From Oscillospiraceae bacterium (GTDB lineage: Bacteria > Bacillota > Clostridia > Oscillospirales > Oscillospiraceae): a stretch of 51,781 nt of DNA. The position numbers were made by a program, and so were the translations under genes. Within the stretch, counting starts at the first letter, position 1. Each line of letters begins with the position of its first letter. The notes below the pieces were generated by a model that saw nothing but the letters and a program-made list of their open reading frames with translations, was not told where the DNA came from and searched no databases. Below are positions 23,894 through 39,440 of the stretch, piece by piece. The stretch lies in contig JAFSJE010000025.1 in assembly GCA_017439425.1 (NCBI GenBank), positions 1 through 51,781 of the forward strand. The letters are read 5' to 3'.

Positions 23894-23942
23894 TGAGACT
23901 ACTATGAGGTAAGCGTTTCCGCGCTGTCGTATGCTTGCCGCG

Positions 23943-24188
23943 TCAGAAGAAACCCGCTCCGCTGGGCTTCGTGATGATTTGTCTGTGACAGTAGGTGCGC
24001 TCCAAAAATGGGGTATCGCCGTGTCCCGCCAGCTCCGCTACCGTCTGCTTGTCCACGCCGTTGTGGAGGAGCGTTGAGACGAACAGGTGTCGGAGCGTGT
24101 GGAGGTGAAACTCTTTTGGGAAGCCGAGGTCTTCATATATCTTACGCAGGTGTTTTGTAAATGAAAACGTATGTCTGTTTTTGCACAA
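23943..24188 (-). pseudogene. C-terminal fragment of a third tyrosine recombinase (copy C)
   Basis: An 81-residue frame holds only the end of the catalytic domain: HLHTLRHLFVST (box II His-Arg), AELAGHGDTPFLERTYCH (His and probable Tyr nucleophile). It differs in sequence from copies A and B, so it comes from another element. No N-terminal part is seen upstream. With copy B it marks the right border of module 1. Confidence 0.75.
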
Positions 24189-24309: not shown

Positions 24310-25116
24310 TTACGGTGCCTTTTTGTCAGAAATATATATATTCTCTGCAAACCCTATCCGTTTATCTATCGTTTCTTGTGTAAAGGATAACGGCGCTTCA
24401 GCGTCGAACATATGCTTCGCGCCGCGGATCATATTTGCCTCTGTTCCAAGCCTATGCGCGCACTGTAACGCTTCAGTGCAGAGTATGTCAAGCTCGGCCG
24501 CCTCGACATAGGTCACCGGCAAGCCGGAGAAGTCCTCGTGCCGCATCGGGGCAAGATACTTTACCATCTCCGGTGGCGCGTTTCTGAGATAAGCGGTCCA
24601 CATAAGCCGGTTTGCCCTCGCTGTCCACGCAGCCTCCGGCATTTCAGCATCCGTCCTGTCGTCAAGTGCAGGATAGATCAGCATCACACCGTCAGGCTGC
24701 GGTATGCCGTTATCTCTTGCGTATAAGCAAATTCCAAGGGCCAGTGCGCCTCCGGCGCTTTCGCCGTAGACGATGAGCTTCGGATATTTTACTCGCATTC
24801 TTTTATATTCTTCAATACAGAAATTGAAAATCCCATCTGCGCCAGCGTCCGGTATAAGCGGGTACTCCGGCATGAATACGGTGCAGTCAAGCTCCTTTGC
24901 GTATTTCTCTGCAAGCCTCAGAGAATAAGCCTGCGCAGGCAGGTAAAACCCGCCGCCGTGGAGATAAAGCATCGCCCTCTCTTCGCTCTCGCCGAAAATA
25001 TAGTCCGGCTCCTTTACTCTCTGCGCCTCAAGCTGTATCGCGCGCCTGAGCATTTTAAGCGCAATTTTCATTCCCGGCGCTGTCGGATCTATTTCAGGCA
25101 GCTTATCTGTATTCAT
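24310..25116 (-). CDS. Alpha/beta hydrolase of the HSL (hormone-sensitive lipase) family
   Basis: A 268-residue carboxylesterase-like enzyme with the HSL oxyanion motif HGGG (about 53-56), nucleophile elbow GESAGG (Ser120), Asp210 in AAELDILC and His235 in GAKHMFD. No signal peptide is seen, so it acts in the cytoplasm, perhaps removing an acyl group from the imported glycoside. Its ATG lies 14 bases inside the acetokinase-like gene, behind GGAG. Last gene of the six-gene coupled operon from the promoter at 31208. Confidence 0.88.
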   Translation of the reverse strand: MNTDKLPEIDPTAPGMKIALKMLRRAIQLEAQRVKEPDYIFGESEERAMLYLHGGGFYLPAQAYSLRLAEKYAKELDCTVFMPEYPLIPDAGADGIFNFCIEEYKRMRVKYPKLIVYGESAGGALALGICLYARDNGIPQPDGVMLIYPALDDRTDAEMPEAAWTARANRLMWTAYLRNAPPEMVKYLAPMRHEDFSGLPVTYVEAAELDILCTEALQCAHRLGTEANMIRGAKHMFDAEAPLSFTQETIDKRIGFAENIYISDKKAP

Positions 25117-26278
25117 AGGTTCTCCGGGCAATGCCCAACTCCTCGTTTGTCGGTATCACAAGCACACGCACCTTTGAATCCGGCGCAGAAACGTCCTCTT
25201 CGTTTTTGCCGTTTTTCTCTTTATCTATCTTAACGCCGAGGAGCCCCAGCTTTTCGCAAACTCTCTGACGGATATAGGCCGAATGCTCGCCTATTCCGGC
25301 TGTGAACACGAGACAGTCAAGCCGCCCCAGATCCATGGTGAAAGCGCCGATATAGTGGACTATGCCGGTTACAAACACGTCTATGGCAAGCTTCGCTCTC
25401 TCGTTTCCGTCCTCCGCAGCCTCAATAACGTAGCGCAGGTCGTTTGAAACTCCGGAGATGCCGTAAAGCCCGCCGGTTTTCTGCATACCCTTCAAAATTT
25501 CATTGTCAGAAGCTCCCTCACTTCTGAGAAAATACGGCATGCTTGCGTCCATATCTCCCACTCTGTTTGCGTGGATAAGTCCGCTCTCAAGGCTCATGCC
25601 GAAGCTTGTGTCAACGCTCCTGCCGTTCTCAATCGCGCAGACGGAGCAGCTTCCGCCCAAGTGGCAGGAAACGGCTGCATACTCGCCGTATCTCGCGTTC
25701 AGAACGTCCGCGATATACCCGTGACTTGCGCCGTGGTATCCCAGGCGCTGAACCCCGTATTTTTCATACCATTCGTAGGGTACACCGTAGATTTTGCGCT
25801 CGAGCGGTATCGTGCGGTGGAAAGCCGTTTCAAAGCAGCCTACGAATCTGGCCTCAGGTAAAAAGCTTCGCATTACCTTAATTGCCGCAAGGTATGCTCT
25901 GTTGTGCAGGGGTGCGAGGCTTATCCAGTCCTCCATTCCACGTAAAACCTCATCGTCAAGCTCGTGTACGCCGAGGTGGCCTTTGGAGAGCGTCGCCTTG
26001 TAGCCGACCCGCTCTATCTCGGAAACCGATCCGAGCACGCCGTATTCTTTATCGGTGAGATAATCAAGAAAAAGGCGTATACCGCTCTCATAATCCGGAA
26101 TGTCCGCCTTTTCAGCGGCGTTTTTCTTCTCTGTAAGGCAGTTTTCGTATTTGAATACAGCGTCCTTATCGCTGCCGACGCGCTCTACGCCGCACTGCGC
26201 GAGCACCCTTGCCTCCGGCATTTCGTAGAGCTTGAATTTAAGGCTTGTCGAGCCGACGTTGCAGACTAAAACCTTCAT
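25103..26278 (-). CDS. Divergent acetokinase-family (ASKHA) acyl-phosphate kinase
   Basis: A 391-residue protein of the acetate/propionate/butyrate kinase family, recognised by NVGSTSLKF (phosphate 1), LAPLHN, YHGASHGYI, SVDTSFGMSLESGL, TAGIGEHSAYIR and IPTNEELGIARRT. Several active-site signatures differ from acetate kinase: the GHRVVHGG box with its essential Arg reads VGYKATLSKG, FDTAFH reads FETAFH (Glu150), HLGNGSS reads HLGGSCS, and GTRSGDID reads ANRVGDMD. It therefore probably acts on an acyl phosphate other than acetyl phosphate. In place of the carbamate kinase of FdrA/YlbE operons, it may make ATP from the product of those proteins (inference). ATG 26278 has GGAGG 8 bases upstream. 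Confidence 0.85.
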   Translation of the reverse strand: MKVLVCNVGSTSLKFKLYEMPEARVLAQCGVERVGSDKDAVFKYENCLTEKKNAAEKADIPDYESGIRLFLDYLTDKEYGVLGSVSEIERVGYKATLSKGHLGVHELDDEVLRGMEDWISLAPLHNRAYLAAIKVMRSFLPEARFVGCFETAFHRTIPLERKIYGVPYEWYEKYGVQRLGYHGASHGYIADVLNARYGEYAAVSCHLGGSCSVCAIENGRSVDTSFGMSLESGLIHANRVGDMDASMPYFLRSEGASDNEILKGMQKTGGLYGISGVSNDLRYVIEAAEDGNERAKLAIDVFVTGIVHYIGAFTMDLGRLDCLVFTAGIGEHSAYIRQRVCEKLGLLGVKIDKEKNGKNEEDVSAPDSKVRVLVIPTNEELGIARRTYEYR

Positions 26279-26279
26279 T

Positions 26280-26465
26280 TCAATAACCTCCGAGGTAATC
26301 GAGGAGCTCCTGCATTCTCTTATCTCCACCGGCCGCGGGTTTCCAATCGACCTGGAGCGATTTGTAGCCCTGCTTTTCAAGAACGTCGGCAAAAGATTTT
26401 GGCCCAACGTTGACCACAACAAGCTCCGAACGGAACAGGCTCAGTATCTTGCTTGTATCTGTCAT
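26280..26465 (-). CDS. 61-residue stand-alone VDWKPAAGG protein
   Basis: This tiny gene overlaps the FdrA-like stop (ATGA) and ends inside the SD of the kinase gene, so it is real and coupled. It reads as one compact domain: ELVVVNVGPKSFADVLEKQG, then SLQVDWKPAAGG, then a helix. From memory, very similar NxG..F...L...G...V.VDWxPPAGG segments are part of larger FdrA or DUF1116 proteins; here the segment is separate. Likely a third subunit of the FdrA/DUF1116 complex, possibly in place of AllH (DUF2877), which I do not find. Confidence 0.75.
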   Translation of the reverse strand: MTDTSKILSLFRSELVVVNVGPKSFADVLEKQGYKSLQVDWKPAAGGDKRMQELLDYLGGY

Positions 26466-28000
26466 TGCGCGTCCCTCCTGAGTTTTACTATCTCGCTTGC
26501 AAGAAGCGCGGCGCGGTAATTTGTGCGGCATACGATGACGCCGGCGTCGCGAAGCTCCTGCTCCTGCTTTCTTATGTCCTGCCAGTCGGCGGTCGTGCCG
26601 AGAACGGAGGCTATAAACACTATCTTTCCGCCTCTTTCAGCAGCCATCTTCTGCGCCTTTATAATATCCGGCACCATATAGCCGCAGGGGTCGGGATGGC
26701 CAGGAGGCGTAAGAATAACATCGAGAACGATGACCGCAACAGTGGGATCCGACGCCTCTTTCAGTATTGCCGGCTTTCTTATGGACGCGTCTATCGCGGG
26801 GTGCGGTCTGCCGAGGGTGTACTCCTCCTCACCGTAATCGATGCAGGTGTGCTCCCGGCTATCGCCCTCTATCTTCCACTCCTTTGAAAGCGGCGCGTTC
26901 GACCATATTCCGCCCGCGGCGTCCCACATAGTGCGCATAGCCTCGTCGAGATACGTGCCGCCTGTATATGCTCCGCGCAGATACTTCTGCTCCGGCGCCA
27001 TTCCCTTTACCGCTTCCTTCGCCGTCTCCTTAAGCTCGTCAATACTGCCGAGGGAATAATCGCTATGTATAAGCTCCAGCGCTCTCAGTGCGCAGTCGTC
27101 GAGATTTTCCGCCCAGACAGAGCCGGTCGCCTCTATCGCCTCTCTGTCGCAGCCCATAAAGAACACGACTCTCGGCTTCTTCATCCCGCTTATTCTCGCA
27201 AGCAGCTTTTTTAGAACGCTGTCGGCGGGCTTTCTCGAAATGAGGATTATATACTTTGTCTCCGGGTCGGCCTCCAGCGCGTCGATGCCCATGAGCATCG
27301 TTATGCCGCCCACCGCCTCCTTGAGATCGTTGCCGCCGGTGCCGATGGTCTGGCTTACGCCGCTGCCCGCCTCGGGCAGAATCGCGGCAACGTGCTGTAT
27401 GCCCGTTCCTGAAGCTCCGACGATGCCGAACGGGCCTCGGTTGTTTATGCTGGAGAGAACCAGAGCCGCGCCGTTTATATTTGCAACGCCGCAGTCGGGA
27501 CCCATACATAAAAGTCCCTTTTCCCTCGCAAGCTCCTTCATCTCACGTTCGTCCGAAAGCGGAACGTTATTTGAGAATACGCATATATGCATCCCCGCGT
27601 TCAGCGCCTTTTTCGCTTCCTCCAGCGCATATTCGCCCGGCACGCTTATCTGGCAGAGGTTTGCCCTCGGCTCATGTTCCTTTGCCTGAACGCTTGTTCT
27701 GAAGGAAACAGGCTTTTCTTCATCGTCCACCGGCGCGCTCTCTGTGCGGAGCTTCTCTACGGCATTGTTGAACGCCTCCTCGCTCTCCGCTTCGGCGACT
27801 ATCACATAGTCCGAGTCGGCTGCGGCAAGTATTTCGGGTGCTGAAAGTCCTATCTCCTTCGTGACCTCCTTGAACACCTCAGTCGCCATACCTACGTATC
27901 CAGTACCGATACCGGGCTGATCGTTCAGCATAGCCGTTTCCGAGAGGGTCTCGAGGGAATCTATATATCTGTCCTTTTGGATAACAAAAAATACACTCAT
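26462..28000 (-). CDS. FdrA/AllF-like protein (succinyl-CoA synthetase fold)
   Basis: A 512-residue FdrA-family protein with a CoA-ligase-like Rossmann region: MGPDCGVANINGAAL, FGIVGASGTGIQHVAA, TIGTGGNDLKEAVGG, and late HPDPCGYM. In E. coli, FdrA (AllF) with YlbE (AllG) and YlbF (AllH) forms the oxamate carbamoyltransferase that phosphorolyses oxalurate to oxamate and carbamoyl phosphate. Here it lies between a DUF1116 (YlbE-like) gene (TAATG overlap) and the small VDWKPAAGG gene. The chemistry is probably phosphorolytic release of an acyl or carbamoyl phosphate; the true substrate is unknown. Confidence 0.88.
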   Translation of the reverse strand: MSVFFVIQKDRYIDSLETLSETAMLNDQPGIGTGYVGMATEVFKEVTKEIGLSAPEILAAADSDYVIVAEAESEEAFNNAVEKLRTESAPVDDEEKPVSFRTSVQAKEHEPRANLCQISVPGEYALEEAKKALNAGMHICVFSNNVPLSDEREMKELAREKGLLCMGPDCGVANINGAALVLSSINNRGPFGIVGASGTGIQHVAAILPEAGSGVSQTIGTGGNDLKEAVGGITMLMGIDALEADPETKYIILISRKPADSVLKKLLARISGMKKPRVVFFMGCDREAIEATGSVWAENLDDCALRALELIHSDYSLGSIDELKETAKEAVKGMAPEQKYLRGAYTGGTYLDEAMRTMWDAAGGIWSNAPLSKEWKIEGDSREHTCIDYGEEEYTLGRPHPAIDASIRKPAILKEASDPTVAVIVLDVILTPPGHPDPCGYMVPDIIKAQKMAAERGGKIVFIASVLGTTADWQDIRKQEQELRDAGVIVCRTNYRAALLASEIVKLRRDAQ

Positions 28001-29262
28001 TACTCCTCGCCCTCCATTCTCTTTACCTCATTCGCTACACCCTCAACGGCTTTTTTGAAAACCTCCATAGGAAGCTCGGCTGCTCCTGCGCCAGCCTGGC
28101 CTCCGGTCTTGAGTGCGCTGCCTCCGTGGGATATGGGCAGAATGTTAAGCCCCACGACCTTTCGGATATCCACTCCGACCGGGAAGCCTCTGTAATCGTC
28201 CCACGGGACGGGCGCGAAGTTATGCTCCCCGAGAGAAACCTGCCTTGCCTTTTCCGTGCGCTCTTTTGCGTCGCGGAAGGTGCCGCCGGTCATTCTGAGA
28301 TATGCAGGACCTGCAATAGCGCTCATGCCGCCGAGGCCCCAGACCTCTGTTACGCAGCTGTCGCCGAGGTATCCGAGAAGGTCGGCTTCCGTGGTGGTCG
28401 GCTTCAGGAAGATTCCGGAAATCTTCGGCGCAGGTGTTGTGTACCACTTATTTCCCGTTGCGGCGACCTGTATGCCGAACTCGACTCCGTTGCCTCCCAT
28501 GCCCACCATAATGGTGGAGTACGGCTCCTCCTTCGCCTTCTGCATAACAGCCTCCACTCCCGCCATCATAACGTGCAGGAAGAAGCGGTCGTTCGCGCAG
28601 ATCTCCTTTATTACTCTGTCCCTCGCGGGATGCTGAACGTCGAGAAGATACGGAACAAGCTCAAGCGCGAGAGCCATTGAAGCCGCAGGCTGGCGGTTAT
28701 GGTTCTCATCGCCCATTCCGGCAGTTTTGGAGAGGATTCTTACGAGGTCTATTCCTCCGCTTTTTCTGACTGCCTCACCCAGAACCTCTGCATAGTCGCC
28801 TCGAATAAAGCGCAGATTCTCCTCAACATCTTCGCCGTAAATGCCCCAGCGGAGCACTCTCGGATTTGAGCCGGGGTGCGGCACGCAGTAGCCTGCCCCG
28901 CCGGAGGTCTTATCCTCCACCACGAACACCGGCATACTTGCGCTCATAACGCTTGACGCCGCGTTGCCGCAATTATAATCCTGACTGGGCGCGATCTTGA
29001 TCTCGCCGCGCAAAACCATCTCCCACGCCTCGTCCACGTTCTTTGCAAGGCCGTCGTGGCAGGCGGCGCCGCAGACCGCCGTTCTGAGCGGAATGGGAAG
29101 CTCCTTCGCCTCTATGGGCGGGCCGGGAACAAGTATGAGATTCCTTTCCATACCCGGAACTGCGTCTATTGCCGGACGAACGTCCGTCCAGACCGGGCGC
29201 GCCTTCGTCATTATATCTATTACCCTCTTATTTGCTTCTGCTACCTTTTCAGGAACCGTCAT
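28000..29262 (-). CDS. DUF1116 (YlbE/AllG-like) protein
   Basis: A 420-residue DUF1116 protein: N-terminal RARPVWTDVRPA-like helix, GPPIEAKELPIPLRTAV, HDGLAKNVDEAWEM, SASMPVFVVED and GIDLVRILSKTAGMGDENHNR. Family members pair with FdrA in purine-ureide breakdown. The length is usual. It starts with ATGA overlap on the GHL6 gene and ends with TAATG on the FdrA gene, so all are translated together. Glycosidase context is not typical of this family, which usually sits with allantoin genes. Confidence 0.88.
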   Translation of the reverse strand: MTVPEKVAEANKRVIDIMTKARPVWTDVRPAIDAVPGMERNLILVPGPPIEAKELPIPLRTAVCGAACHDGLAKNVDEAWEMVLRGEIKIAPSQDYNCGNAASSVMSASMPVFVVEDKTSGGAGYCVPHPGSNPRVLRWGIYGEDVEENLRFIRGDYAEVLGEAVRKSGGIDLVRILSKTAGMGDENHNRQPAASMALALELVPYLLDVQHPARDRVIKEICANDRFFLHVMMAGVEAVMQKAKEEPYSTIMVGMGGNGVEFGIQVAATGNKWYTTPAPKISGIFLKPTTTEADLLGYLGDSCVTEVWGLGGMSAIAGPAYLRMTGGTFRDAKERTEKARQVSLGEHNFAPVPWDDYRGFPVGVDIRKVVGLNILPISHGGSALKTGGQAGAGAAELPMEVFKKAVEGVANEVKRMEGEE

Positions 29263-31181
29263 CTGTTTTCCTCCTTGACTGCAATGCAGGCGTGAAAGTT
29301 CAGCCTTGGTAAATAAATTGTCAGCTCTCCGTCGGAAAGCTCATATTCTACATTATCCGGGTCGTCAATGTTCTCGCAAATCGCGGTCTTCCGTTCCCAT
29401 GGTATCGTTATACTCTGGTCTCTCAGCTCCGCCGGATCAAAAAAGCTGTTGCCAAAACGGCCTGTTCCGTTTACAAAATGAATGATCTCCGCGCCGTCCT
29501 TGACTCCGCGGGTAACCTCGACCATAGGGCTGATTTTTTTCCCGATGCTCTTTATTTTGCACTTAGCTTCAATAAGCTCCCGCGCATAGTCGAGATACGA
29601 CGTGTGTCCATCTGTGCAGTAGCACTCGCCGATAAACCACGGAAGTGTAATGCACTTACCTCCGCCGAAGGTGTTCACAACCGCACAGGGATAATCCTTC
29701 GGCGGCTCTGTTGCATAACACAGCTCCGGCGGACCGAACCGCTCAGGCGCAAGATATGCTCCAAGCTTTTTTGCGCCGGGCTTTACTGTGCTTTTAATAT
29801 ACTTCTTTCCCGGAATGAGGCGTTTGCCGCCGTCCAAAAGCACCGCGCCCTCGTTTTCATCTGTATTCTGTACTCCTGTAACGCCGACAGCTTCAAGCTC
29901 CAGTACGGCGCCGCTTGTGATAACTGCGCCGCCTCTTCTTACATACTCATCAATTATTGCGTTCAAAGGCTTTCGGATCCTCGACTTATCGGGAAGAATC
30001 ACAAGCTTGTACTCCGAGAGATCCTTCTTAGCAAGCCCGCTCAGCAGAGTTTCATCAAAAATAAAGTGGTTTTCGGTGAGCAGTCTTACCCAGCCGCGTT
30101 CCTCGGCGTTCGGCATAATATACGAGTCCTTTACAAGCAGGATGTCCGCCTTGCTCTTTACTCCGTACACAATGTTCTCGTGCTCTGCGGCGTACCCGAA
30201 CACGTGCTTTACCCGCTCAAAGGCGCTCTTGTCGGCTTTATCGTAGAGCCTGCCCATAACATAATAGTCAAGGCCGCCGAAATTTGCGAGCGTCTGCCAG
30301 GCCCTCAGTTCCTGAAGTGCAGGTGGGCAGGAAACGTGACGGTAAGAAAAACCCATAAAATCCACGTTTGCAACCGTTGCCTCCACGTCCATACCGCGCA
30401 TCATACGGGCATTTGACGATGCCGCGTACTGCCACGTTTCAGCGCCGTAGCTTGCCTGCGCCTCCTGCCTCGAGTAATCTACCGAGCAGTAGGCTATTTC
30501 CGGATTTACGGAGTGAACAAGCTCTGTTATTCTCTTTTTCTGCTCCGCGGCGATATTTTGCTGAAAACCGAAATACATCATGCTTGCTCTGTCACCCGGA
30601 CGAAGCTCTTCCGGTATCTCAAGTCCTGCAGCCGCTTTGAACGCAGCCCTGCATCTCTCACACTGGCAGGGTCCGTGCCGGTTCATACTGTAATCAACGA
30701 TATATCCCGTTGCCGAACCCATATTAATATAGATCCCGTCAAAGGGTATTTTCGAGAGCATTTCCCGAATGATATCGTCCATGTACCCCGCCTGATAGCC
30801 GCCGAGAACGCAGGTCTGAACATAGCCGTTATAAATAAGCGGAGAACCGTCTGCATGACGGTAAGCCCATTCCGGATGACGCATGAACACGCTTTCTGAA
30901 ATCTTTGAAAAATCCGTTCTCGCGATAACCTTGATCTTTTCCCTGTGAAGCCTTTCCACAAGGTATCCGAGATCAAAGTCATCAAGATATTCGCTCTGAG
31001 GCTCATCGAAAAGAGCGCTCGGATAGCTCGCCATAAGTCCTGCCGCATTCAGCATAACGACGTTTGCTTTGAACTCCTTAAGCTCAGCAATAAATCTTTC
31101 GGTATCAAAGTTAACGGTGTCGATTTCCCTGAAATTCGGCTGTATTACCCTCCAGGGGTAGTTTATCCACCATTTTGACAT
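29259..31181 (-). CDS. GHL6-type putative glycosyl hydrolase
   Basis: A 640-residue protein resembling the hypothetical glycosyl hydrolase 6 family (TIM barrel plus GATase-like domain). The barrel (about 1-330) opens WWINYPWRVIQPNFREIDTV, with FKANVVMLNAAGL, KVIARTDFSKI and HPEWAYRHADG; the second part (about 340-560) resembles a beta-galactosidase trimerisation/GATase fold (VILPDKSRIRKPL, YVRRGGAVITSG), then a beta-sandwich. No signal peptide: cytoplasmic. The substrate is unknown. First gene of the six-gene operon, behind an AraC-type promoter. Confidence 0.75.
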   Translation of the reverse strand: MSKWWINYPWRVIQPNFREIDTVNFDTERFIAELKEFKANVVMLNAAGLMASYPSALFDEPQSEYLDDFDLGYLVERLHREKIKVIARTDFSKISESVFMRHPEWAYRHADGSPLIYNGYVQTCVLGGYQAGYMDDIIREMLSKIPFDGIYINMGSATGYIVDYSMNRHGPCQCERCRAAFKAAAGLEIPEELRPGDRASMMYFGFQQNIAAEQKKRITELVHSVNPEIAYCSVDYSRQEAQASYGAETWQYAASSNARMMRGMDVEATVANVDFMGFSYRHVSCPPALQELRAWQTLANFGGLDYYVMGRLYDKADKSAFERVKHVFGYAAEHENIVYGVKSKADILLVKDSYIMPNAEERGWVRLLTENHFIFDETLLSGLAKKDLSEYKLVILPDKSRIRKPLNAIIDEYVRRGGAVITSGAVLELEAVGVTGVQNTDENEGAVLLDGGKRLIPGKKYIKSTVKPGAKKLGAYLAPERFGPPELCYATEPPKDYPCAVVNTFGGGKCITLPWFIGECYCTDGHTSYLDYARELIEAKCKIKSIGKKISPMVEVTRGVKDGAEIIHFVNGTGRFGNSFFDPAELRDQSITIPWERKTAICENIDDPDNVEYELSDGELTIYLPRLNFHACIAVKEENR

Positions 31182-31280: not shown

Positions 31281-31343
31281 AGCTAATTTACGAATTTGAA
31301 AGCTAATTTAAGTATGGTCATTGTTTCAATACTGTGGCATAAT
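31281..31343 (+). promoter_or_regulatory. AraC-type site and promoter for the hydroxyacid dehydrogenase
   Basis: Identical 10-mers AGCTAATTTA at 31281-31290 and 31301-31310, 20 bp apart, then CATAAT at 31338-31343, 33 bases after the A at 31305. The -35 is poor. Back to back with the minus-strand site 11 bp away. Confidence 0.78.
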
Positions 31344-31365
31344 TAGAAAAAAGGAGGCGCTGCGT

Positions 31366-32469
31366 ATGCCGAAAATTAACAAGGTAGTGACCACAGTCTG
31401 GTACAACAAAAAGAATATGTACTCTCTCCGTCGTGTGTTCCCAAAAGCTCAGTTTGTCTATGTGGATTTTTATGACAAAGAAAAGCTTTCCGAAGAGGTT
31501 AAGGACGCCGATGTCTGCATACTGCTCGGCGACGTGGATAACTGCATCCTCGGAGAAAACACGCTGAAATGGATACACTGCGATCACGCAGGTCTGAACG
31601 GTTCCGCAAGACCCGAGGTCTTTGCGCGCGGCATACCTGTAACCGGCGCAGCAGGCAGAAGCGCGCCGGTGCTCGCAGAACACGCCATTTATTTCATGCT
31701 CCAGAGCTGTTATCACACCCGCGACCTTCTCCGCGCTCAGGATGAGTGCCGCTGGGGCGTTGAGGGCAGTGAAAAATGGCGCGGTCTATACGGGCGCACA
31801 GCAGGTATCGTCGGCTTGGGTCACACCGGAAAGATGCTTTGCGAGAGACTTCGCGCTCTAGGCATGGAGATAATCACATATAACCGCTCCGAGGTCGCGG
31901 GCTTTGACTATGCTAAAAAGCTGACAGCCCAGAAAGGCGACAGCCTTGACGAGCTTCTTGAATGCTCTGATTTCGTTATTCTAACCGTTGCACTGACAGA
32001 TGCGACTTTCCATCTTATAGGCAAGGAAGCCTTTGAAATAATTAAAAAGGGTGCCTTCCTTGTGAACATTTCACGAGGAGGAGTTGTTGATACCGATGCT
32101 CTTATTGAAGCTCTGTCGGACGGCACTCTCTCCGGCGCCGGACTCGACGTATTTGAGGAGCAGCCGCTCAGCGCGGATTCCCCGCTCTGGAAAATGTCAA
32201 ATGTCTATATAACGCCGCACATCACCCCGCAGGTTCCGGACAGGCAGGCAGCCAGCATTGAGATAATTCGCGAAAACGCAAGGCGCTTTGAAGCTGACGA
32301 GCCGCTTATGAATCTTATGCGTGAGTCAGATGCCGTTTCCGGCGGAAAGGCTGAGGGAGGCTGGGCAAGGCTGATGAACTCCAACCTGCCGAAATCGGAG
32401 ATTGAGAAGCTTCCGCTTGATAAATTCCTCGGTGCAAGAGGCTGGAAGGATCCAAGTGAATGGATGTAA
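31366..32469 (+). CDS. D-isomer-specific 2-hydroxyacid dehydrogenase
   Basis: A 367-residue NAD-dependent dehydrogenase: Rossmann GIVGLGHTGKM (about 147-157), catalytic Arg237 in NISRGGVVD, Glu264 in GLDVFEEQPL and His285 in PHITPQ. It reduces a 2-oxoacid or oxidises a D-2-hydroxyacid (glyoxylate/hydroxypyruvate reductase-like); the exact acid is open. AAAAAGGAGG lies 9 bases before the ATG. It has its own AraC-type promoter and a terminator, so it is a single-gene unit of the module 2 regulon. Confidence 0.9.
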   Translation: MPKINKVVTTVWYNKKNMYSLRRVFPKAQFVYVDFYDKEKLSEEVKDADVCILLGDVDNCILGENTLKWIHCDHAGLNGSARPEVFARGIPVTGAAGRSAPVLAEHAIYFMLQSCYHTRDLLRAQDECRWGVEGSEKWRGLYGRTAGIVGLGHTGKMLCERLRALGMEIITYNRSEVAGFDYAKKLTAQKGDSLDELLECSDFVILTVALTDATFHLIGKEAFEIIKKGAFLVNISRGGVVDTDALIEALSDGTLSGAGLDVFEEQPLSADSPLWKMSNVYITPHITPQVPDRQAASIEIIRENARRFEADEPLMNLMRESDAVSGGKAEGGWARLMNSNLPKSEIEKLPLDKFLGARGWKDPSEWM

Positions 32470-32474
32470 GAAAA

Positions 32475-32507
32475 GGCCTGAGCGGTTCAGTTCCGCTCAG
32501 GTCTTTT
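32475..32507. terminator. Bidirectional terminator between convergent genes
   Basis: GGCCTGAGCGG (32475-32485) pairs with CCGCTCAGGTC (32493-32503), followed by TTTT on plus and TTTTC on minus. Confidence 0.85.
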
Positions 32508-33198
32508 AATATAGGTCAGTAATTATATTCGCGCCGGCTACGGTTATGATCCCCGAAAGCACAAGGGCAAGTGAGCTCATAGCCCCCTCAGTTTCGCCGA
32601 TCTCCATCGCCTTTGACGTGCCGATAGCGTGGGACGCAGTTCCGATAGCAAGCCCTTTTGCAGCCGGCTCGGTAATTCTGAATACTCTGCAAGCACCCTC
32701 GGCGCAGACGTTTCCCAGTATTCCCGTGATCACGATTGCCGCCGCAGTTACCGATGGATATCCGCCAAGCTCCTCAGAAACGGCTATTCCGATAGCAGTT
32801 GTGACGGATTTCGGCAGCAGGGTTACAAATTCGGCTTTCTCCAGACCGAACAGCTTTGAAAGCAGGAATATGGTCAGAATACCGGAAAAAGTTCCTGCTC
32901 CGACTCCTATTAGAACAGCAGCAATATTTCTTTTCAGATGCTCCAGTTTCTCATAAAGCGGCACGGCCAGCGCAACCGTTGCCGGAGTCAGAAACCAGCT
33001 TATATATCTCGCGCTTGTCATATAGCTCTCATAGTCGATCTTAAAAAACATCATAAACGCAACAACAAGGATTACAGCAATAAGCAGTGGATTTGCAAAC
33101 GCTGTTTTGAACCGGGCCTTTACTTTTGCGCCGATATAATAGCAAAGAAGGCTCAGAACTGTTCCGAGAAGCGCCGATGATGCAAAAGCCTCATTCAT
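32506..33198 (-). CDS. LrgB-family transporter subunit
   Basis: A 230-residue LrgB/CidB protein with about six helices and the family segments SVTTAIGIAVSEELGG and GTASHAIGTSKAMEIGE. LrgA/LrgB pairs were named for murein hydrolase control, but related proteins are organic-acid carriers: B. subtilis PftAB carries pyruvate, and plant PLGG1, an LrgA-LrgB fusion, carries glycolate and glycerate. Next to glycerate 2-kinase this pair is best read as a glycerate or glycolate carrier (inference). Start overlaps the LrgA stop by 8 bases. Confidence 0.88.
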   Translation of the reverse strand: MNEAFASSALLGTVLSLLCYYIGAKVKARFKTAFANPLLIAVILVVAFMMFFKIDYESYMTSARYISWFLTPATVALAVPLYEKLEHLKRNIAAVLIGVGAGTFSGILTIFLLSKLFGLEKAEFVTLLPKSVTTAIGIAVSEELGGYPSVTAAAIVITGILGNVCAEGACRVFRITEPAAKGLAIGTASHAIGTSKAMEIGETEGAMSSLALVLSGIITVAGANIITDLY

Positions 33199-33544
33199 CC
33201 CTCTTCCCCCTTATAACTGCCTGCGATGAAAGCCCACTCACTCCGAGAACGATGAACGTTGATACAGCAACTATCACCAAAAGCGGCAAAATAAAAGCTC
33301 TCAGCTCCTCAGCTCTGTCCATAAGACCGACGGATGCCGGTATAAACATGACAGGCATTATCTCAATAAGAAAACCCGCCGGAGCCTTTACTTCATCAAG
33401 CTTAACGAGCTTCAGACACAAAAGAACAAACAGAAGCGCCAACCCATATATGCTGCCCGGAACCGGCAAAGGGATAAAGCGCCGCAGTATTTCTCCTGCG
33501 GCGCTTACAAATAGTATTATTCCAAAGCCCCTGAGATGTTTCAT
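33191..33544 (-). CDS. LrgA-family transporter subunit
   Basis: A 117-residue LrgA/CidA protein with four helices and the typical PLPVPGSIYGLALLF and IMPVMFIPASVGLMD segments. It overlaps the glycerate kinase stop by 4 bases (ATGA) and the LrgB start by 8, making a tight three-gene unit. Partner of LrgB. Confidence 0.88.
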   Translation of the reverse strand: MKHLRGFGIILFVSAAGEILRRFIPLPVPGSIYGLALLFVLLCLKLVKLDEVKAPAGFLIEIMPVMFIPASVGLMDRAEELRAFILPLLVIVAVSTFIVLGVSGLSSQAVIRGKRDE

Positions 33545-34779
33545 CTCTCCGTTCCTCCGATAAGCATTACCGCAACATCGTTGACATTAGTGCCAGTCGG
33601 ACCGGTAATCACAAGCCCGTCAACCGTCTTGAGCGCGTTATATGCGTCGTTGTTTTTGAGTGTCTCAGACAGGCTTATGCCGGCGTTTCTCAGCCTTGTA
33701 AGCGTAGTGCCGTCTGCATAGCCTCCTGCCGCGTCCGTCGGACCGTCAGTTCCGTCGGAGCCAACGCTGATAACGCAGGCGTTAAGTCCGCTCAGTCCCT
33801 CCGCCGCAGCGAGCGCAAGCTCCTGATTTCTTCCGCCCATTCCGTCTCCGGTAAGGTGAACTACCGTCTCGCCGCCGAGAATATACGCCGCTTTTCTTCC
33901 GTCCCCTGCATGGCTTTGCGCTATCGACGCAAGCATTCTGCCCGCTTCCTTTGCCTCGCAGGAGAGCATATCCGTAAGGAAAAATGTTTGATACCCGAGG
34001 CTCGCTGCCTCTCTTTCCGCCGCCCTGCACAGCTCCCTCACTGAGCCGACGACCTGAACGAAAACATTTTCAAGCGACTTCGGTGTTTCCCTATTCAGCA
34101 GTTCAAGCGCTCTTTCGCTCATATTGATCCCGTACTTCCGGACAACCTCCAGCGCATCGGCGCAGCTTGATGAATCTGGACTGACAGGCCCCGAGGCAAT
34201 CATATCGACACGGTCGCCGAGAATATCCGAGAGTATTACAGCCTCAACCTTCGCCGGAGCGCATGCGAGCGCAAATCTTCCGCCCTTAACGGCTGAGAGT
34301 CGTTTTCTGATTGAGTTTATCTCAGTTATTTCTGCGCCGGAGGCGAGAAGCGCGTTGGTTATATTCCGCAGCTCATCCAGAGAGACAAGCGGCTTTTCAA
34401 ACAGAGCGCTGCCGCCTCCGGACAGGAGAAACAGCACGGTATCATCGGCAGAAAGGCCGCGAATAAGCTCCAAAGCCCGCTCCGTTGCCAAAACTCCCGC
34501 CTCATCGGGAACGGGATGAGCCGCCTCAAAGCACCGAACTCCCGGAATTTCGCCCATAACGTGACCGTATTTCGTTATAACGATGCCTCCGTCGATCTCA
34601 GTGCATTGAACGGCTGCTTTAGCCATCTGCCACGCCGCCTTTCCTGCGGCAACAAGTACGACCTTACCTGAAAAGCTTTTGCCTGAAAGTGCTCTTTTTA
34701 CCGCCTCATCCGGCAGACATGAGCCTATTGCTCTGCAGGCTATTCTCTCAGCGTCATCACGCATTTTATTATAGTTCAT
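33541..34779 (-). CDS. Glycerate 2-kinase (MOFRL family)
   Basis: A 412-residue MOFRL/GckA-type kinase that turns D-glycerate and ATP into 2-phosphoglycerate. Visible segments are AGKAAWQMAKA, FLLSGGGSALFEKP, NSIRKRLSAVKGG, LSDILGDRVDMIASGPVSPD and, in the MOFRL domain, GGRNQELALAAAEGL, SVGSDGTDGPTDAAGG and TGTNVNDVAVML. It drains tartronate semialdehyde made and reduced by the GarR-like enzyme into glycolysis. ATG 34779 is chosen by position; the SD is poor, and the gene begins right after the terminator at 34797-34831, so its promoter is unclear: read-through from the GPH operon is possible. Confidence 0.92.
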   Translation of the reverse strand: MNYNKMRDDAERIACRAIGSCLPDEAVKRALSGKSFSGKVVLVAAGKAAWQMAKAAVQCTEIDGGIVITKYGHVMGEIPGVRCFEAAHPVPDEAGVLATERALELIRGLSADDTVLFLLSGGGSALFEKPLVSLDELRNITNALLASGAEITEINSIRKRLSAVKGGRFALACAPAKVEAVILSDILGDRVDMIASGPVSPDSSSCADALEVVRKYGINMSERALELLNRETPKSLENVFVQVVGSVRELCRAAEREAASLGYQTFFLTDMLSCEAKEAGRMLASIAQSHAGDGRKAAYILGGETVVHLTGDGMGGRNQELALAAAEGLSGLNACVISVGSDGTDGPTDAAGGYADGTTLTRLRNAGISLSETLKNNDAYNALKTVDGLVITGPTGTNVNDVAVMLIGGTER

Positions 34780-34796
34780 ATTCAAGCCGGCTTTCT

Positions 34797-35619: not shown

Positions 35620-37125
35620 TCACTTTTTCGCGCTGAGCGCTTTTTTCTTCTCTGCAATATTCGTCTGGATCTCTACCATGCGCTCCTTGTCTAGCTCATA
35701 GAACTTCATCGCAACAAGGTTGCAGATCCAGCCGAGAATGGGCATTCCATAAACCATACCCATAGTGAGGAAGAACAGCGGAATCGAAGGCTTATCGCCC
35801 ATCTGCGGCATTACGGTTGTGTAGCCGATAAGGGCGACCGCAAAGGTAACGAAGGTTGAGCCGAGAGAGGCGATGAGCTTCTCGGTAAAGGTATAGCATG
35901 CTCCGACCATGCCTGGCATAAAGTTGCCGCTGCGGTCAAGCTCATAGTCGGCAATATCCGCGCGCATCATTCCTTCAGCGGTGTTAAGCACCATCTGGGC
36001 AGCGTTCTTGCCCATCATAAGACCGACGTAGATGATCATAGGCCAGCCGCCGATGCCGATCTGCTTCATGCCCCACGGGCCCATGACCATACAGAGTGCA
36101 AAGAGTCCGAGTGATACAGCAATATTAATATACGACCAGACTACCATCGAAGTCTTCACGCCGTACTTGGCAATAAATACGCCGCCGAGGAATGCAAATA
36201 TCAGTCCGACGATCATAGCGGAGTTATTTATCATCGTGGTCGCCTAATAGTTTGCAATAAGGATACCCGTGAGCATAACGGTAACGACGGAGTCGGTGCT
36301 CATCTTGGTGGCAAGCTTATCGGAGGCGCCGGCTACGATGTAGCAGCGAAGGGGCTTGTTGACCTTGAGCATATTCCACATTTCCTTGATGCCGACCTTC
36401 TGCTTCTTTCCGCTGAGGCTCATGAGCTCTCCGAGCACCTTGTCGTTATCAACAGGGGCGATTCCGATAAAGGTAAGGATCATAAATACGAGGGCGACTC
36501 CGCAGAAGAGATAGCACGCCTCGCCGAGGCACGCTGCGTCATACTGGTTATTGTGGCGCGGAAGAATTGTGAACGCCATAAGGTTATTGACTATAAGCGG
36601 AGCAAGATACTGATAGAGCGTCGCCGTGAAGTTCATGAAAGGGCGCTGCTTCGGGTCGTTTGTGAGAATGGTGGGGATCGTAGTGCCGCCGATACTGAGA
36701 ACGGTATATCCTATAACGAAAAACGCATAGACAAGGCAGAACACCACGATGCCCATAACTCCGTCAAACTTATTAACAAGAATGCTGAACATCAGAATTG
36801 CCGCAATGATCGTACTTCCGTACCCTATTGCGAGGAATTTGCGCATTTTACCATGTTTTCCTGCCGGCATACGGTCAAAGATCGCGGCAACGAACGGATC
36901 ACACACTCCGTCGAAGATGGTCTTAACGGTCATGATAATGCCCGTTACCGCAACGAGGACCCCGAAGCCCGCGTTGGCTATGTAGCTTGAGTACATCATC
37001 AGCATCATAAAGATGTTTTTGCCGCCGCTGGTGGCGCAGGCGAGAATCATTGACCTCATGCTCGCAGTGCGGTATACACCGTTATTTGAGCCCTTTGCTC
37101 CAGCAATGATTTTTTTCAGGTTCAT
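35620..37125 (-). pseudogene. GPH-family sugar:cation symporter interrupted by one in-frame TAG
   Basis: A full-length (about 500-codon) MFS transporter of the glycoside-pentoside-hexuronide family. The first part (36247-37125) has about six to eight helices including FDGVCDPFVAAIFDRMPAGKHGKMRKFLAIG; then codon 36244-36246 is TAG; then the frame continues without shift (ATTMINNSAM, GVFIAKYGVKTSMVVWSY) to a TGA at 35620. Nothing else is decayed. Either a recent nonsense mutation (one C-to-T change from CAG would do), a sequence error, or read-through. It would import the glycoside for the module 2 glycosidases. ATG 37125 has GGAG 9 bases upstream, behind an AraC-type promoter. Confidence 0.85.
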
Positions 37126-37167
37126 TCTATCGCTCTCCTTCATCTATTTCTAAACGAGCCTGAAAAC

Positions 37168-37234: not shown

Positions 37235-38452
37235 TTACATTCTTCTGTTCTGCTCCCTGAACCGCGCCGGCGGAAGTCCGGCGATTTTCTTGAATGTCTC
37301 TGCAAAAAAGCTCCGCGAGCCGAAGCTGAGCTTATCGCATATCTCCTGAATGCCCATATCCGAGGAAATCAGCAGCGTTTTTGCGTGCTCAACCTTTACT
37401 ATTTTAATATAATCGTTTATGCTGAAGCCTGTCTCCTCTTTAAATTTTCGTGAAAGATAGTATTCAACGTAGCCGACGTGACGCGCAAGATCCTTTAGCG
37501 TTATCTTTTTTTCGGCATTCAGCTCTATGTATTCGCAGCAGCTCTGTATCTGCTTTGAATATTTGGGGTTTGACCGGCTTTTGTGAACGAGGCGGACAAA
37601 ATCATCGTACATAGTGTGTCCGATCTGAGCAGCATCAGTCACGCTTTTGCAATCAAGAACATCCTGAATATAAGCGTCGCCTCGGGAATATGCCACCTCC
37701 GGAGATATACCGCCCTCGATCGCCGCACGGGTGCATAGTGAAATGAACACAATCTGCGATACTCTGACCTGCCGTAAAGACATGCTGCTATCAACTCTAA
37801 CTCCCCTGCTTATACCGGCGGCATTATCAAGTATGCTTTTATAATTGAGGTCGCCCTCGCTGACCATTCTCATAAGAGCCTGCTCTGTCATATAGGTTTT
37901 CATTCTGTCCCGCTTAGTTGTTTCTCCGGAGGCGGGTTTTTCAATTCCTTGAGAAATAAAAACGATATCGGAATTAGTCAGCTTCTCACCTGTAACGCAA
38001 TAGTGAAGCATAAGAATGTATCTGAAAAAGTCTACTGTGGAAACTGTCGGAATGTTCATCAGTATCTGCTCAAGCTTCTTGCGCCGGCCTGGACTCATTT
38101 CAGCTCTTCGCAGCGCATCGTCCACGTCCCATATGCTGAGTTCCGTCGATGCCGCAGGTCCGAAAACGTGGATCTTTGACAGAGTGTCTCCTTCGCGCTC
38201 AAACGCCGCGCCCCAAACAAGTCCCATAGGAACGCTGAAGACTATCGGCTCCGAATGCTCTCTCGCATGCTCGAGCATTCGTTCGAGGTACCCCGATTTT
38301 TTAAATACCTTGTGCAGAATAAGGTCGGGACAGTTCGTTTCCTGCACCTCGCCCTCGAGATTATAAACCCATGTGTACATCCTTCCGCCGAAGGATAAAA
38401 GCTCCCTCAGATTTTCGATTCGCTCCTGTACGCTAAGATTTGACGCGGACAT
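37235..38452 (-). CDS. AraC-family transcriptional regulator of module 2
   Basis: A 405-residue regulator. The N-terminal part (about 1-290) is a long effector/dimer region resembling PocR-like or response-type sensory domains (LSFGGRMYTWVYNLEGEVQETNCPDL), and the C-terminal AraC HTH pair (about 305-400) shows KITLKDLARHVGYVEYYLSRKFKEETG and GIQEICDKLSFGSRSFFAETFKK. Start ATG 38452 behind GAGGTG, not the upstream in-frame codon. It divides the garR-GH2 and GPH operons and is flanked by two of the four repeat sites, so it is the obvious candidate to bind them as an activator. Confidence 0.9.
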   Translation of the reverse strand: MSASNLSVQERIENLRELLSFGGRMYTWVYNLEGEVQETNCPDLILHKVFKKSGYLERMLEHAREHSEPIVFSVPMGLVWGAAFEREGDTLSKIHVFGPAASTELSIWDVDDALRRAEMSPGRRKKLEQILMNIPTVSTVDFFRYILMLHYCVTGEKLTNSDIVFISQGIEKPASGETTKRDRMKTYMTEQALMRMVSEGDLNYKSILDNAAGISRGVRVDSSMSLRQVRVSQIVFISLCTRAAIEGGISPEVAYSRGDAYIQDVLDCKSVTDAAQIGHTMYDDFVRLVHKSRSNPKYSKQIQSCCEYIELNAEKKITLKDLARHVGYVEYYLSRKFKEETGFSINDYIKIVKVEHAKTLLISSDMGIQEICDKLSFGSRSFFAETFKKIAGLPPARFREQNRRM

Positions 38453-38470
38453 AGTTTTCACCTCAAAAAG

Positions 38471-38532
38471 ACGAATTTGGAGATACAATCTCGAATTCAA
38501 TTATATACCTGGACCCTTTTTTTGTATATACT
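38471..38532 (+). promoter_or_regulatory. AraC-type site and promoter for garR-GH2
   Basis: GACGAATTT (38470-38478) and CTCGAATTC (38490-38498) are 20 bp apart; TATACT (38527-38532) starts 33 bases after the A at 38494. The -35 (TATACC) is poor. Confidence 0.75.
38500..38528 (-). promoter_or_regulatory. Probable promoter of the AraC-type gene
   Basis: On the minus strand TATACA (38523-38528), 17-bp spacer, TATAAT (38500-38505). Its start point would lie within the second box of the garR site, so the regulator could repress itself while activating garR. Confidence 0.55.
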
Positions 38533-38561: not shown

Positions 38562-39440
38562 ATGAAAATAGGCTTTATAGGCATGGGTATTATGGGAAAG
38601 CCCATGGCAATCAATCTTGTAAAGGCCGGACTTGACGTTACCGTAGCAAACCGCACCGAGAGTAAATGCTCTGACGCCATTGCGGCCGGCGCAAAAAAGG
38701 GCACCTATCTATCAATAGCCGAGAATTGCGACGTCATCATTACAATGCTCTCCAATTCTCCTCAGGTTCGTGAAGTCGTTCTCGCAGATGATTTCTACAA
38801 TGCCTTGCACGCAGGGCAGATTCTTGTTGACACAAGCTCCATTAACCCCATCGACTCCAAGGAGATCGCCGCAAAGCTTTCTGAAAAGGGCGTTGAAATG
38901 CTCGACGCTCCCGTTTCCGGCGGCGAGCCTATGGCAATAAGCGGCAAGCTCAGCTTTATGGTGGGCGGCAAGCAGGAAATCTTCGATAAGATGAAGCCCG
39001 TTCTGTCCCATATGGGCGCGTCCGTAGTGCGATGCGGCGAAATCGGTGCCGGCAACACGACAAAGCTCGCAAATCAGATAATCGTCGCCGCAAACATTCA
39101 GGCGCTCAGCGAGGCGCTTACCCTTGCGCAGAAGGCGGGAGTCGATCCCGAGCTCGTCTTTGAGGCGATAAAGGGCGGTCTTGCCGGCTCCAACGTAATG
39201 AACGCCAAGGCGCCTATGATGCTCTCCGGAAACGACAAGCCGGGCTTTAAAATCGATCTTCACATCAAGGACCTTAACAATGCCCTCTCCTGCGCCCACT
39301 CCGTCGGCGCTCCGGCGCCCGTTACAGCTGGAGTTATGGAGGTCATGCAGTGGATGCACGCAAACGGCGGCGGTCAGAAGGATCACAGCGCCATCGCGCA
39401 GTATTACGAGCACCTTACCGGTATAAAGCTCGGAAAATAA
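38562..39440 (+). CDS. garR: 2-hydroxy-3-oxopropionate (tartronate semialdehyde) reductase, GarR/GlxR type
   Basis: A 292-residue beta-hydroxyacid dehydrogenase: Rossmann GFIGMGIMGKPMA (about 4-16), substrate box DAPVSGGEPMA (about 115-125), catalytic Lys168 in GNTTKLANQ. The closest group by motif is GarR/GlxR, which makes D-glycerate from tartronate semialdehyde; other beta-hydroxyacids are possible. The glycerate 2-kinase in the same region supports the GarR reading. Strong SD AAAAGGAG. It is followed by the GH2 gene after 18 bases and is under the AraC-type promoter. Confidence 0.88.
   Translation: MKIGFIGMGIMGKPMAINLVKAGLDVTVANRTESKCSDAIAAGAKKGTYLSIAENCDVIITMLSNSPQVREVVLADDFYNALHAGQILVDTSSINPIDSKEIAAKLSEKGVEMLDAPVSGGEPMAISGKLSFMVGGKQEIFDKMKPVLSHMGASVVRCGEIGAGNTTKLANQIIVAANIQALSEALTLAQKAGVDPELVFEAIKGGLAGSNVMNAKAPMMLSGNDKPGFKIDLHIKDLNNALSCAHSVGAPAPVTAGVMEVMQWMHANGGGQKDHSAIAQYYEHLTGIKLGK

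Follow-up and report, generated by a model that had tools for sequence, protein, structure and literature searches.

An operon that joins homologues of AllG and FdrA, known from the oxamic transcarbamylase AllFGH of E. coli, to a putative glycosidase, an acetokinase-family kinase and an esterase raises the question of which reaction these proteins serve. The operon lies in a 51,781-nucleotide contig of an Oscillospiraceae bacterium (GenBank assembly GCA_017439425.1, contig JAFSJE010000025.1), the whole of which was analysed and is called the window below; it is contig C11 of a 2.30-Mb genome in 89 contigs that is 95.5% complete. We hold with moderate confidence that the operon provides the ATP-yielding step of carbohydrate catabolism, in which a phosphorolytic acyltransferase and an acyl-phosphate kinase would act along a route from a glycoside to glycerate. 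The acyl-phosphate idea is well supported in a more general form, namely that part of the AllFG family is conserved outside ureide use and has its own kinase.

The six genes follow one another head to tail on the minus strand. A GHL6-family protein of 640 amino acids, a candidate glycosidase (29259..31181; PF14871, 78 bits against a cut-off of 35, E 9e-22), is followed by the AllG (DUF1116) subunit of 420 amino acids (28000..29262; PF06545, 218 bits against a cut-off of 27, E 1e-64; a homologue of PDB 3clq) and by the FdrA/AllF body of 512 amino acids, which lacks its C-terminal domain (26462..28000; positions 4-496 of PRK06091, E 7e-110; a homologue of PDB 3dmy). Next come a 61-residue mini-protein (26280..26465), a kinase of 391 amino acids (25103..26278; PF00871, E 2e-100) and an Abhydrolase_3 esterase or lactonase-like hydrolase (24310..25116; PF07859, 108 bits, E 6e-31) with HGGG and GESAG motifs. 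The 439-residue open reading frame (ORF) listed for the kinase begins at an upstream TTG, and the 391-residue form was taken; the ORF listed for the esterase begins at a TTG at 25131, and its ATG start gives 24310-25116. GHL6 and AllG overlap by 4 bp, AllG and FdrA by 1 bp, and FdrA and the mini-protein by 4 bp; a single base separates the mini-protein from the kinase (TGA A ATG), and the kinase and esterase overlap by 14 bp. An earlier note on this DNA had described six coupled genes, and all six were found where it placed them, on the minus strand, with the junctions read from the DNA. The operon is real and beyond chance, because two same-genus relatives and many of 53 further loci have kept the set.

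The obvious point of comparison is E. coli. As given in an excerpt of PMC11326118, E. coli AllFGH converts oxalurate and phosphate into carbamoyl phosphate, was assayed in the reverse direction with oxamate and carbamoyl phosphate, and was first assigned a reaction in 2024. The window resembles the E. coli allFGHK genes (fdrA-ylbE-ylbF-ybcF, encoding AllF-AllG-AllH and AllK) in that AllG and FdrA homologues share an operon with an acyl-phosphate kinase and that the FdrA C-terminal domain is also present. It differs in its acetokinase-fold kinase, its free-standing FdrA C-terminal domain and its sugar and glycerate neighbours, in an AllG outside the clade of the ureide-side loci described below, and in having no AllH match, no carbamate kinase over cut-off and no ureide genes found. 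AllH (PF11392), which is needed for the E. coli activity, gave no match in the 95.5%-complete genome, the E. coli control being positive. The best genome matches for carbamate kinase (19 bits, cut-off 358), allantoinase (26 bits, cut-off 358) and glyoxylate carboligase (Gcl; 294 bits, cut-off 711) all fell short, the last being probably another enzyme of the same superfamily. The earlier note had called AllH and carbamate kinase absent, which the genome bears out, and had named their presence elsewhere in the genome with purine-ureide genes as a finding that would speak against it; this was looked for genome-wide and did not come true.

Contigs were scanned with an AllG alignment, which gave 53 loci, including Oscillospiraceae, Clostridia, Erysipelotrichaceae, Solobacterium, Lachnospiraceae, Sphaerochaeta, Anaerolineaceae, Herbinix, Gemmiger and Accumulibacter; genus relatives account for four of these loci, and several others are near duplicates. 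Loci were typed as D (the window and 52 loci), C (seven loci from class genomes) or ureide side (61 loci), with L067 kept apart. Neighbourhoods were counted by tblastn, genes being named by similarity to proteins mostly scanned with Pfam or NCBIfam, and type-D loci flanked by 8 kb or more on each side (n = 28) are called well flanked. An acetokinase-family kinase stands near AllG in 49 of the 61 loci outside the ureide side, 11 of the other 12 lying near contig ends, and in none of the 61 ureide-side loci. The pairing of FdrA with an acetokinase in place of carbamate kinase, for which a survey had been suggested in the earlier note, is recurrent and sugar-linked. Among type-D loci the kinase was found in 43 of 53, with its characteristic motif (below) read in 40 and unresolved in three; nine of the ten without a kinase are near a contig end, and the tenth is L048. 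Type C has it in five of seven, the other two being near contig ends, and L067 holds both a kinase and AllH. On the ureide side, carbamate kinase occurs in 27 loci and AllH in 39; of the 34 without any kinase, 12 are near contig ends. Well-flanked type-D loci carry the kinase in 27 cases, GHL6 in 23, the esterase in 21 and AllH in one. A hybrid, L058, combines GHL6, tartronate-semialdehyde reductase and a GarK-family glycerate kinase of the window kind with AllH, and its kinase groups with those of type C.

Closer to home, AllG was found in six of 60 genomes searched: the source genome, four of the 33 other genomes of its genus, and a single genome of the same order. Two same-genus genomes have the operon in place, with proteins 85-99% identical. 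The other two have the order GHL6-esterase-AllG-FdrA-mini-protein-(NUDIX)-kinase in a different genomic setting, with identities to the window of 37% for GHL6, 35-40% for the esterase, 63-64% for AllG, 58% for FdrA and 69% for the kinase.

The division between the two sides is also seen in the AllG sequences. In a first tree of 77 sequences, the 20 from the ureide side formed one clade (support 1.0). A second tree of 120 sequences, which left out L036, L065, L068, L151 and L154 because their sequences were too short, resolved three groups: the ureide side (support 0.88), with every one of the 63 sequences from 60 of its 61 loci; type C (0.995), with six sequences; and L067 together with 50 type-D sequences (1.0). 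By sequence alone, this tree assigns 57 of 61 non-ureide and 60 of 61 ureide-side loci to their sides. Forty phylum loci had at first been assigned to the ureide side from the genes around them, a circular criterion; the 120-sequence tree was made later and is independent of neighbours. When the tree is rooted at its midpoint, type C comes out as sister to the ureide side; the kinase-linked AllG proteins are thus the remainder around one split and not necessarily a clade. At positions 117, 191, 257, 315, 379, 380 and 395, types C and D agree and differ from the ureide side.

The kinase itself scores over the cut-off of the acetate-kinase model TIGR00016 (340.3 bits against 293.4), and it shares with AckA and TdcD the fold family PF00871 and residues His123, His180 and Arg241 (numbering of M. 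thermophila AckA, PDB 1tuu). It differs from them at four positions. In our alignment, each of the 53 rows for linked or related kinases has Lys91, Glu148 and Gly211 (the KEG type) with Tyr or Phe at 90, whereas all 28 ordinary rows, comprising E. coli AckA (twice) and 26 other AckA, have Arg91, Asp148, Asn211 and His90; a few genes are duplicated in the alignment. His123, His180 and Arg241 are kept in 53 of 53 KEG rows and Glu384 in 51 (not in L027 and L084), and E. coli propionate kinase TdcD carries the ordinary motifs. A FastTree phylogeny of 77 kinases has one branch, with support 1.0, that parts 27 ordinary from 50 KEG kinases. Excerpts of the literature give 0.3-0.6% residual activity for AckA R91A (0.6% in the P. 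gingivalis enzyme; PMC6461089) and describe the counterparts of Asp148 and Asn211 in the Salmonella enzyme as metal and nucleotide ligands (PMC3475010). The genome holds a second acetokinase on contig C84, with ordinary residues and 493 bits to PF00871 against 337 for the window kinase. The divergent acetokinase-fold kinase of the earlier note is, by sequence only, a distinct acetokinase subfamily and not an ordinary AckA, an identity that the Lys, Glu and Gly at 91, 148 and 211 rule out; the possibility of an ordinary acetate or propionate kinase, which had been named as speaking against the proposal, is contradicted on the same grounds.

A census blind to AllG searched 391 class genomes for a DNA pattern encoding FE[T][A/S]FH. 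It matched 21 places in 19 genomes, seven of them KEG kinases (in seven genomes) and 14 not acetokinases; AllG is present in six of the seven genomes with a confirmed KEG kinase versus 24 of 391 overall (P = 2e-7, relatedness uncorrected). The census is incomplete, as the pattern missed the KEG kinases of genomes G115, G142 and G233, and a reversed control pattern also matched some genomes. Three operons hold a KEG kinase with no adjacent AllG (L148 9166-16240, L149 8965-15928 and L150 3051-9987); by eye they contain genes for a UxaA-family dehydratase (90 + 386 amino acids), LarA-like and HMGL-like proteins, a hydroxyacid dehydrogenase and a branched-chain amino-acid-type ABC transporter.

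Window FdrA falls under the curated PRK06091 cut-off (368 against 433 bits), and the separate C-terminal ORF adds 40 bits. This ORF is the mini-protein, which matches positions 499-554 of the 555 in PRK06091 (E 1.7e-10, 40 bits), directly after the stretch 4-496 covered by FdrA itself, and is 36% identical to E. coli FdrA 511-554; the solved structure 3dmy, whose chain is FdrA 82-555, includes this domain. Among 52 type-D loci the domain is free-standing in 44, undetected in seven and without an ORF in one. In eight type-C loci it is free-standing in one, at the AllG N-terminus in three, at the FdrA C-terminus in two, within an FdrA-AllG fusion in one and undetected in one. The corresponding figures for the 61 ureide-side loci are 27, 24, three, two and three, with two unclassified. 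Between the window and L018 the mini-protein gene has 25 synonymous (0.60 per site) and nine nonsynonymous differences (0.064 per site), and the figures are identical for the window against L024 and against L034. Because of the FdrA matches, the recurrence across loci and the excess of synonymous change, the mini-protein is, on this comparison, a conserved movable domain of the FdrA enzyme. A frameshift or assembly error in the metagenome-assembled genome (MAG) is an unlikely origin, the domain being free-standing across many loci. A new subunit or a substitute for AllH is ruled out by the match to the FdrA C-terminal domain. The earlier idea of the 61-residue protein as a stand-in for AllH or carbamate kinase had to be given up, since the same domain stands free in 27 of 61 ureide-side loci as well. 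In L009, L109 and L151 a single protein of about 1000 amino acids combines FdrA, the C-terminal domain and AllG, which suggests that the three parts form one complex. In rabbit-gut relatives, a NUDIX gene (PF00293) lies between the mini-protein and the kinase (L012 12330-12827, L046 and L049).

Over a stretch of roughly residues 100-290, FdrA can be aligned with the superfamily of SucD (succinyl-CoA synthetase alpha). SucD has a GHAG motif, which we take to be the phosphohistidine loop; all five FdrA sequences checked lack it. Because FdrA aligns with SucD yet has no GHAG motif, it can be read as half of the succinyl-CoA synthetase reaction, with ATP formation left to a partner kinase. That partner can be read as carbamate kinase on the ureide side and as the KEG kinase in the window type.

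The neighbourhood points to the fate of the products, and the pathway likely reaches past coordinates 24310..31181. Divergent to the operon is a gene of the D-2-hydroxyacid dehydrogenase family (HADH; 31321..32469, plus strand; PF02826), linked in 19 of the 28 well-flanked loci. A 2-hydroxy-3-oxopropionate (tartronate semialdehyde) reductase (38562..39440, plus strand), linked in 22 of 28, scores over the cut-offs of PRK11559 (414.8 bits, cut-off 397) and TIGR01505 (375.3 bits, cut-off 340.75). A MOFRL-type glycerate kinase (33541..34785, minus strand) is over the cut-offs of PF13660 and PF05161 and below those of the NCBIfam glycerate 2-kinase models. Glycerate kinases are present in 15 of the 28 loci, of the MOFRL type in 13 and of the unrelated GarK family in two, and the use of two unrelated enzymes supports glycerate as a true intermediate. 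The C3 products of type D appear to converge on glycerate.

At the sugar end of the operon, C124, C172, C174 and C177 are invariant in an alignment of 21 GHL6 sequences including that of the window, a spacing that is presumably that of the GH42 zinc site. GHL6 proteins of the Mfuc3 type are, we assume, GH151. Mfuc3 is an alpha-L-fucosidase that cleaves p-nitrophenyl-fucose and neither 2'-fucosyllactose nor 3-fucosyllactose, and it shares with the window protein a GHL6 domain and an A4 beta-galactosidase middle domain (PMC4723247, in excerpt). The window protein partially matches PDB 6tvk (E 0.004). Close GHL6 homologues (E up to 1e-40) were found in five of 371 class genomes, two of which have AllG. 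A marker exclusive to the module it is not, as genomes G143, G375 and G358 rule out. In G143, one of the two GHL6 copies sits at the end of a contig, preceded by genes for a 2-hydroxyacid dehydrogenase and a sugar ABC transporter, and in G358 GHL6 adjoins an apparent GH29 fucosidase (by eye). L260, which has no AllG, holds two GHL6 genes, one of them distant and the other beside an aminotransferase with 43% identity to that of a purine-type cluster.

The gene set, the split of FdrA, the kinase residues, the kept linkage and the lack of the ureide genes looked for are observations; for complex formation, reaction direction, acyl group and substrate we infer the following course. GHL6 and the esterase may release or unblock the sugar substrate. 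By analogy with E. coli oxamic transcarbamylase, AllG, FdrA and the free-standing C-terminal domain would form an acyltransferase (acyl-X + Pi -> acyl phosphate + HX), and the acyl phosphate would probably be released rather than used in situ, because FdrA lacks the GHAG motif of SucD. The KEG kinase would then convert acyl phosphate and ADP into an acid and ATP; because its active site is changed, that acid would not be acetate but probably a 2-hydroxy or oxo acid. The C3 products would be converted to D-glycerate with the help of tartronate-semialdehyde reductase and 2-hydroxyacid dehydrogenase, and glycerate kinase would turn this into a phosphoglycerate. Candidate substrates were weighed on paper only (unsaturated uronide, ascorbate, inositol, glucosylglycerate and fucose), and none was singled out. 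The phosphorolytic acyltransferase feeding ATP formation that had been proposed earlier fits the recurrent, sugar-linked FdrA-AllG-kinase set; the ureido compound suggested as its substrate does not, given that AllG is outside the ureide-side clade and the neighbours point to sugar-acid and glycerate metabolism.

The type-C loci have different neighbours. In L112, L113, L114, L115, L152 and L153, an IlvD/EDD dehydratase and an SDR protein are found in all six, an SdhA-like flavoprotein in five, a KDPG-type aldolase in four, a metallo-beta-lactamase-fold protein in three and Amidohydro_2 in two, with AllG in six, FdrA in five, the KEG kinase in five and AllH in four. L114 and L153 end near their AllG genes, and the seventh locus, L151, is a 4.2-kb contig. 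According to an excerpt of PMC13406643, the non-phosphorylative fucose/rhamnose route ends in an FAH-family hydrolase that yields pyruvate and lactate without ATP (2,4-diketo-3-deoxy-aldonate hydrolase, EC 3.7.1.26). The dehydratase, SDR, aldolase and Amidohydro_2 genes around FdrA, AllG and the kinase are reminiscent of that route; in it the diketone is hydrolysed without ATP, whereas the type-C AllFG-kinase set would stand in the place of FAH. No FAH-family match was found among ten scanned proteins of L113-L115, whole genomes not having been searched. Because the type-C genes resemble fucose/rhamnose steps and no FAH is among the proteins scanned, we tentatively suggest, as a possibility well short of even odds, that FdrA-AllG and the KEG kinase carry out a phosphorolytic C-C cleavage of a beta-dicarbonyl sugar acid to a hydroxy- or oxo-acyl phosphate and a C3 keto acid, gaining ATP. 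The surroundings of the window operon differ from the fucose/rhamnose route in lacking a dehydratase, and no sugar-acid dehydratase or keto-acid dehydrogenase was found among 12 window proteins scanned with Pfam. The diketo-making enzymes are unseen in type D, as no IlvD/EDD, type-C SDR or SdhA-like homologues occur in its 28 well-flanked loci, and the origin of a diketo or similar substrate in type D is the main gap of the cleavage idea. If true, it would be an energy-conserving counterpart of FAH-type hydrolases, through which anaerobes would gain one ATP where known routes gain none; AllFGH would represent a general superfamily of phosphorolytic acyltransferases, in which the partner kinase tells the ureide (C-N) branch from the sugar-acid (C-C) branch. 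A search of the openly licensed literature gave nothing relevant on retro-Claisen phosphorolysis.

Ureide use would have the complex make carbamoyl phosphate from an oxalurate-like compound, with the KEG kinase replacing carbamate kinase and the reductase and glycerate kinase as remnants of allantoin-glyoxylate metabolism. AllG and FdrA do belong to the same families as E. coli AllFGH, and the E. coli glycerate kinase gene glxK lies beside allantoin genes; however, AllH has no match and carbamate kinase, allantoinase and Gcl are below cut-off in the genome, AllG is outside the ureide-side clade and departs from it at the seven positions listed above, and the neighbours are sugar genes. As the leading explanation ureide use is ruled out by the missing ureide genes and the position of AllG, and overall we consider it unlikely. 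We are equally doubtful that the kinase is essentially an acetate or propionate kinase, the complex yielding acetyl or propionyl phosphate from an acylated substrate and the esterase stripping further acyl groups. Arg91, essential in AckA as stated in an excerpt of PMC6461089, is Lys in 53 of 53 rows; Glu148, Gly211 and the ordinary AckA already present in the genome also argue against it, the TIGR00016 score over cut-off and the esterase linked in 21 of 28 well-flanked loci for it.

Slightly less probable still is a synthetic direction, in which the kinase would spend ATP on an acyl phosphate and AllG-FdrA would pass the acyl group to an acceptor, in acylation or detoxification. Acetokinases are reversible, which counts in its favour. 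So does the reverse-direction assay of the E. coli enzyme (PMC11326118, in excerpt), but the neighbours are catabolic (sugar transporters, glycosidases and glycerate kinase). Least probable, to our mind, is that the genes are chance neighbours in a mobile carbohydrate island, with AllG-FdrA-kinase and GHL6-esterase functionally separate. The patchy spread (four of 33 same-genus relatives), integrase-like remnants seen by eye at 23603-24188 and the occurrence of GHL6 and KEG kinases apart would be expected of such an island; linkage kept in Clostridia, Erysipelotrichaceae and Sphaerochaeta MAGs despite altered gene order would not, nor would overlapping reading frames.

Several observations weigh against an ATP-yielding step of sugar breakdown as proposed here. 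No homologue of the IlvD/EDD dehydratase, type-C SDR, SdhA-like flavoprotein or KDPG aldolase occurs in any of the 28 well-flanked type-D loci, among which is the window. The 2-hydroxyacid dehydrogenase is missing from the minimal loci L058-L061, three of which (L058, L059 and L061) are also without the esterase. On the Anaerolineaceae contig L048, an AllG of 65% identity has neither FdrA nor a kinase nearby. GHL6 is without an AllG match in three of five genomes (G143, with two copies, G375 and G358), and a FAD_oxidored protein is linked in only six of 55 loci. The locus counts are not phylogenetically independent, several loci being near duplicates. KEG kinases lie away from AllG in G081, G115 and G142 (L148-L150), and G081 has no AllG match; these AllG-free kinases weaken a strict tie to AllG and keep the tie to sugar- or hydroxy-acid metabolism.

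The module suggests a so far undescribed way of forming ATP in sugar breakdown. The data add to the AllFGH family a further part, tied to an altered acetokinase subfamily, in sugar-degrading rumen and gut bacteria. The AllFGH papers found deal with allantoin or other nitrogen compounds (PMC11326118, PMC12625717, PMC12535856, PMC9843812 and PMC3364942), and in the openly licensed literature, outside of which lie subscription papers and preprints, no link of FdrA or AllG to an acetokinase or to sugar acids was found. If the proposal is true, many FdrA, DUF1116 and acetate kinase annotations would be wrong, the function of GHL6 would become approachable, and a new substrate-level phosphorylation reaction could be tested with a few purified proteins.

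Some loci show further settings of these genes. By eye, many of the ureide-side loci L096-L108, L154-L156 and L209-L242 combine AllG with accessory genes of Mo-hydroxylases and with genes for a PucR-type regulator, a CaiB-type CoA-transferase and a cyclase-like hydrolase, at times with carbamate kinase, which is a further AllFGH context. The AllG gene of L048 adjoins FAD oxidoreductase-like and GH2-like genes.

Additional genes were noted around the window operon. An LrgB-type membrane protein (32506..33198, minus strand; PF04172, 266 bits), which we take to be a candidate monocarboxylate carrier, is present in five of 28 well-flanked loci. Upstream of it is a 117-residue ORF (33191..33544, minus strand), probably lrgA by position only, with a 117-residue ORF in the same place in L016 and L017. 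A regulator with an AraC-like C-terminus (family assigned by eye; 37235..38500, minus strand) has homologues in 27 of 55 clustered loci, and a GH2 protein is also near the operon. ORFs resembling tyrosine-recombinase fragments (by eye) flank the region at 23603-24188 and 361-927. A transporter gene (35620..37143, minus strand; sugar-type MFS by eye) is broken by an in-frame TAG into ORFs at 36244-37143 and 35620-36234, and it is a single 507-residue ORF in the two closest relatives.

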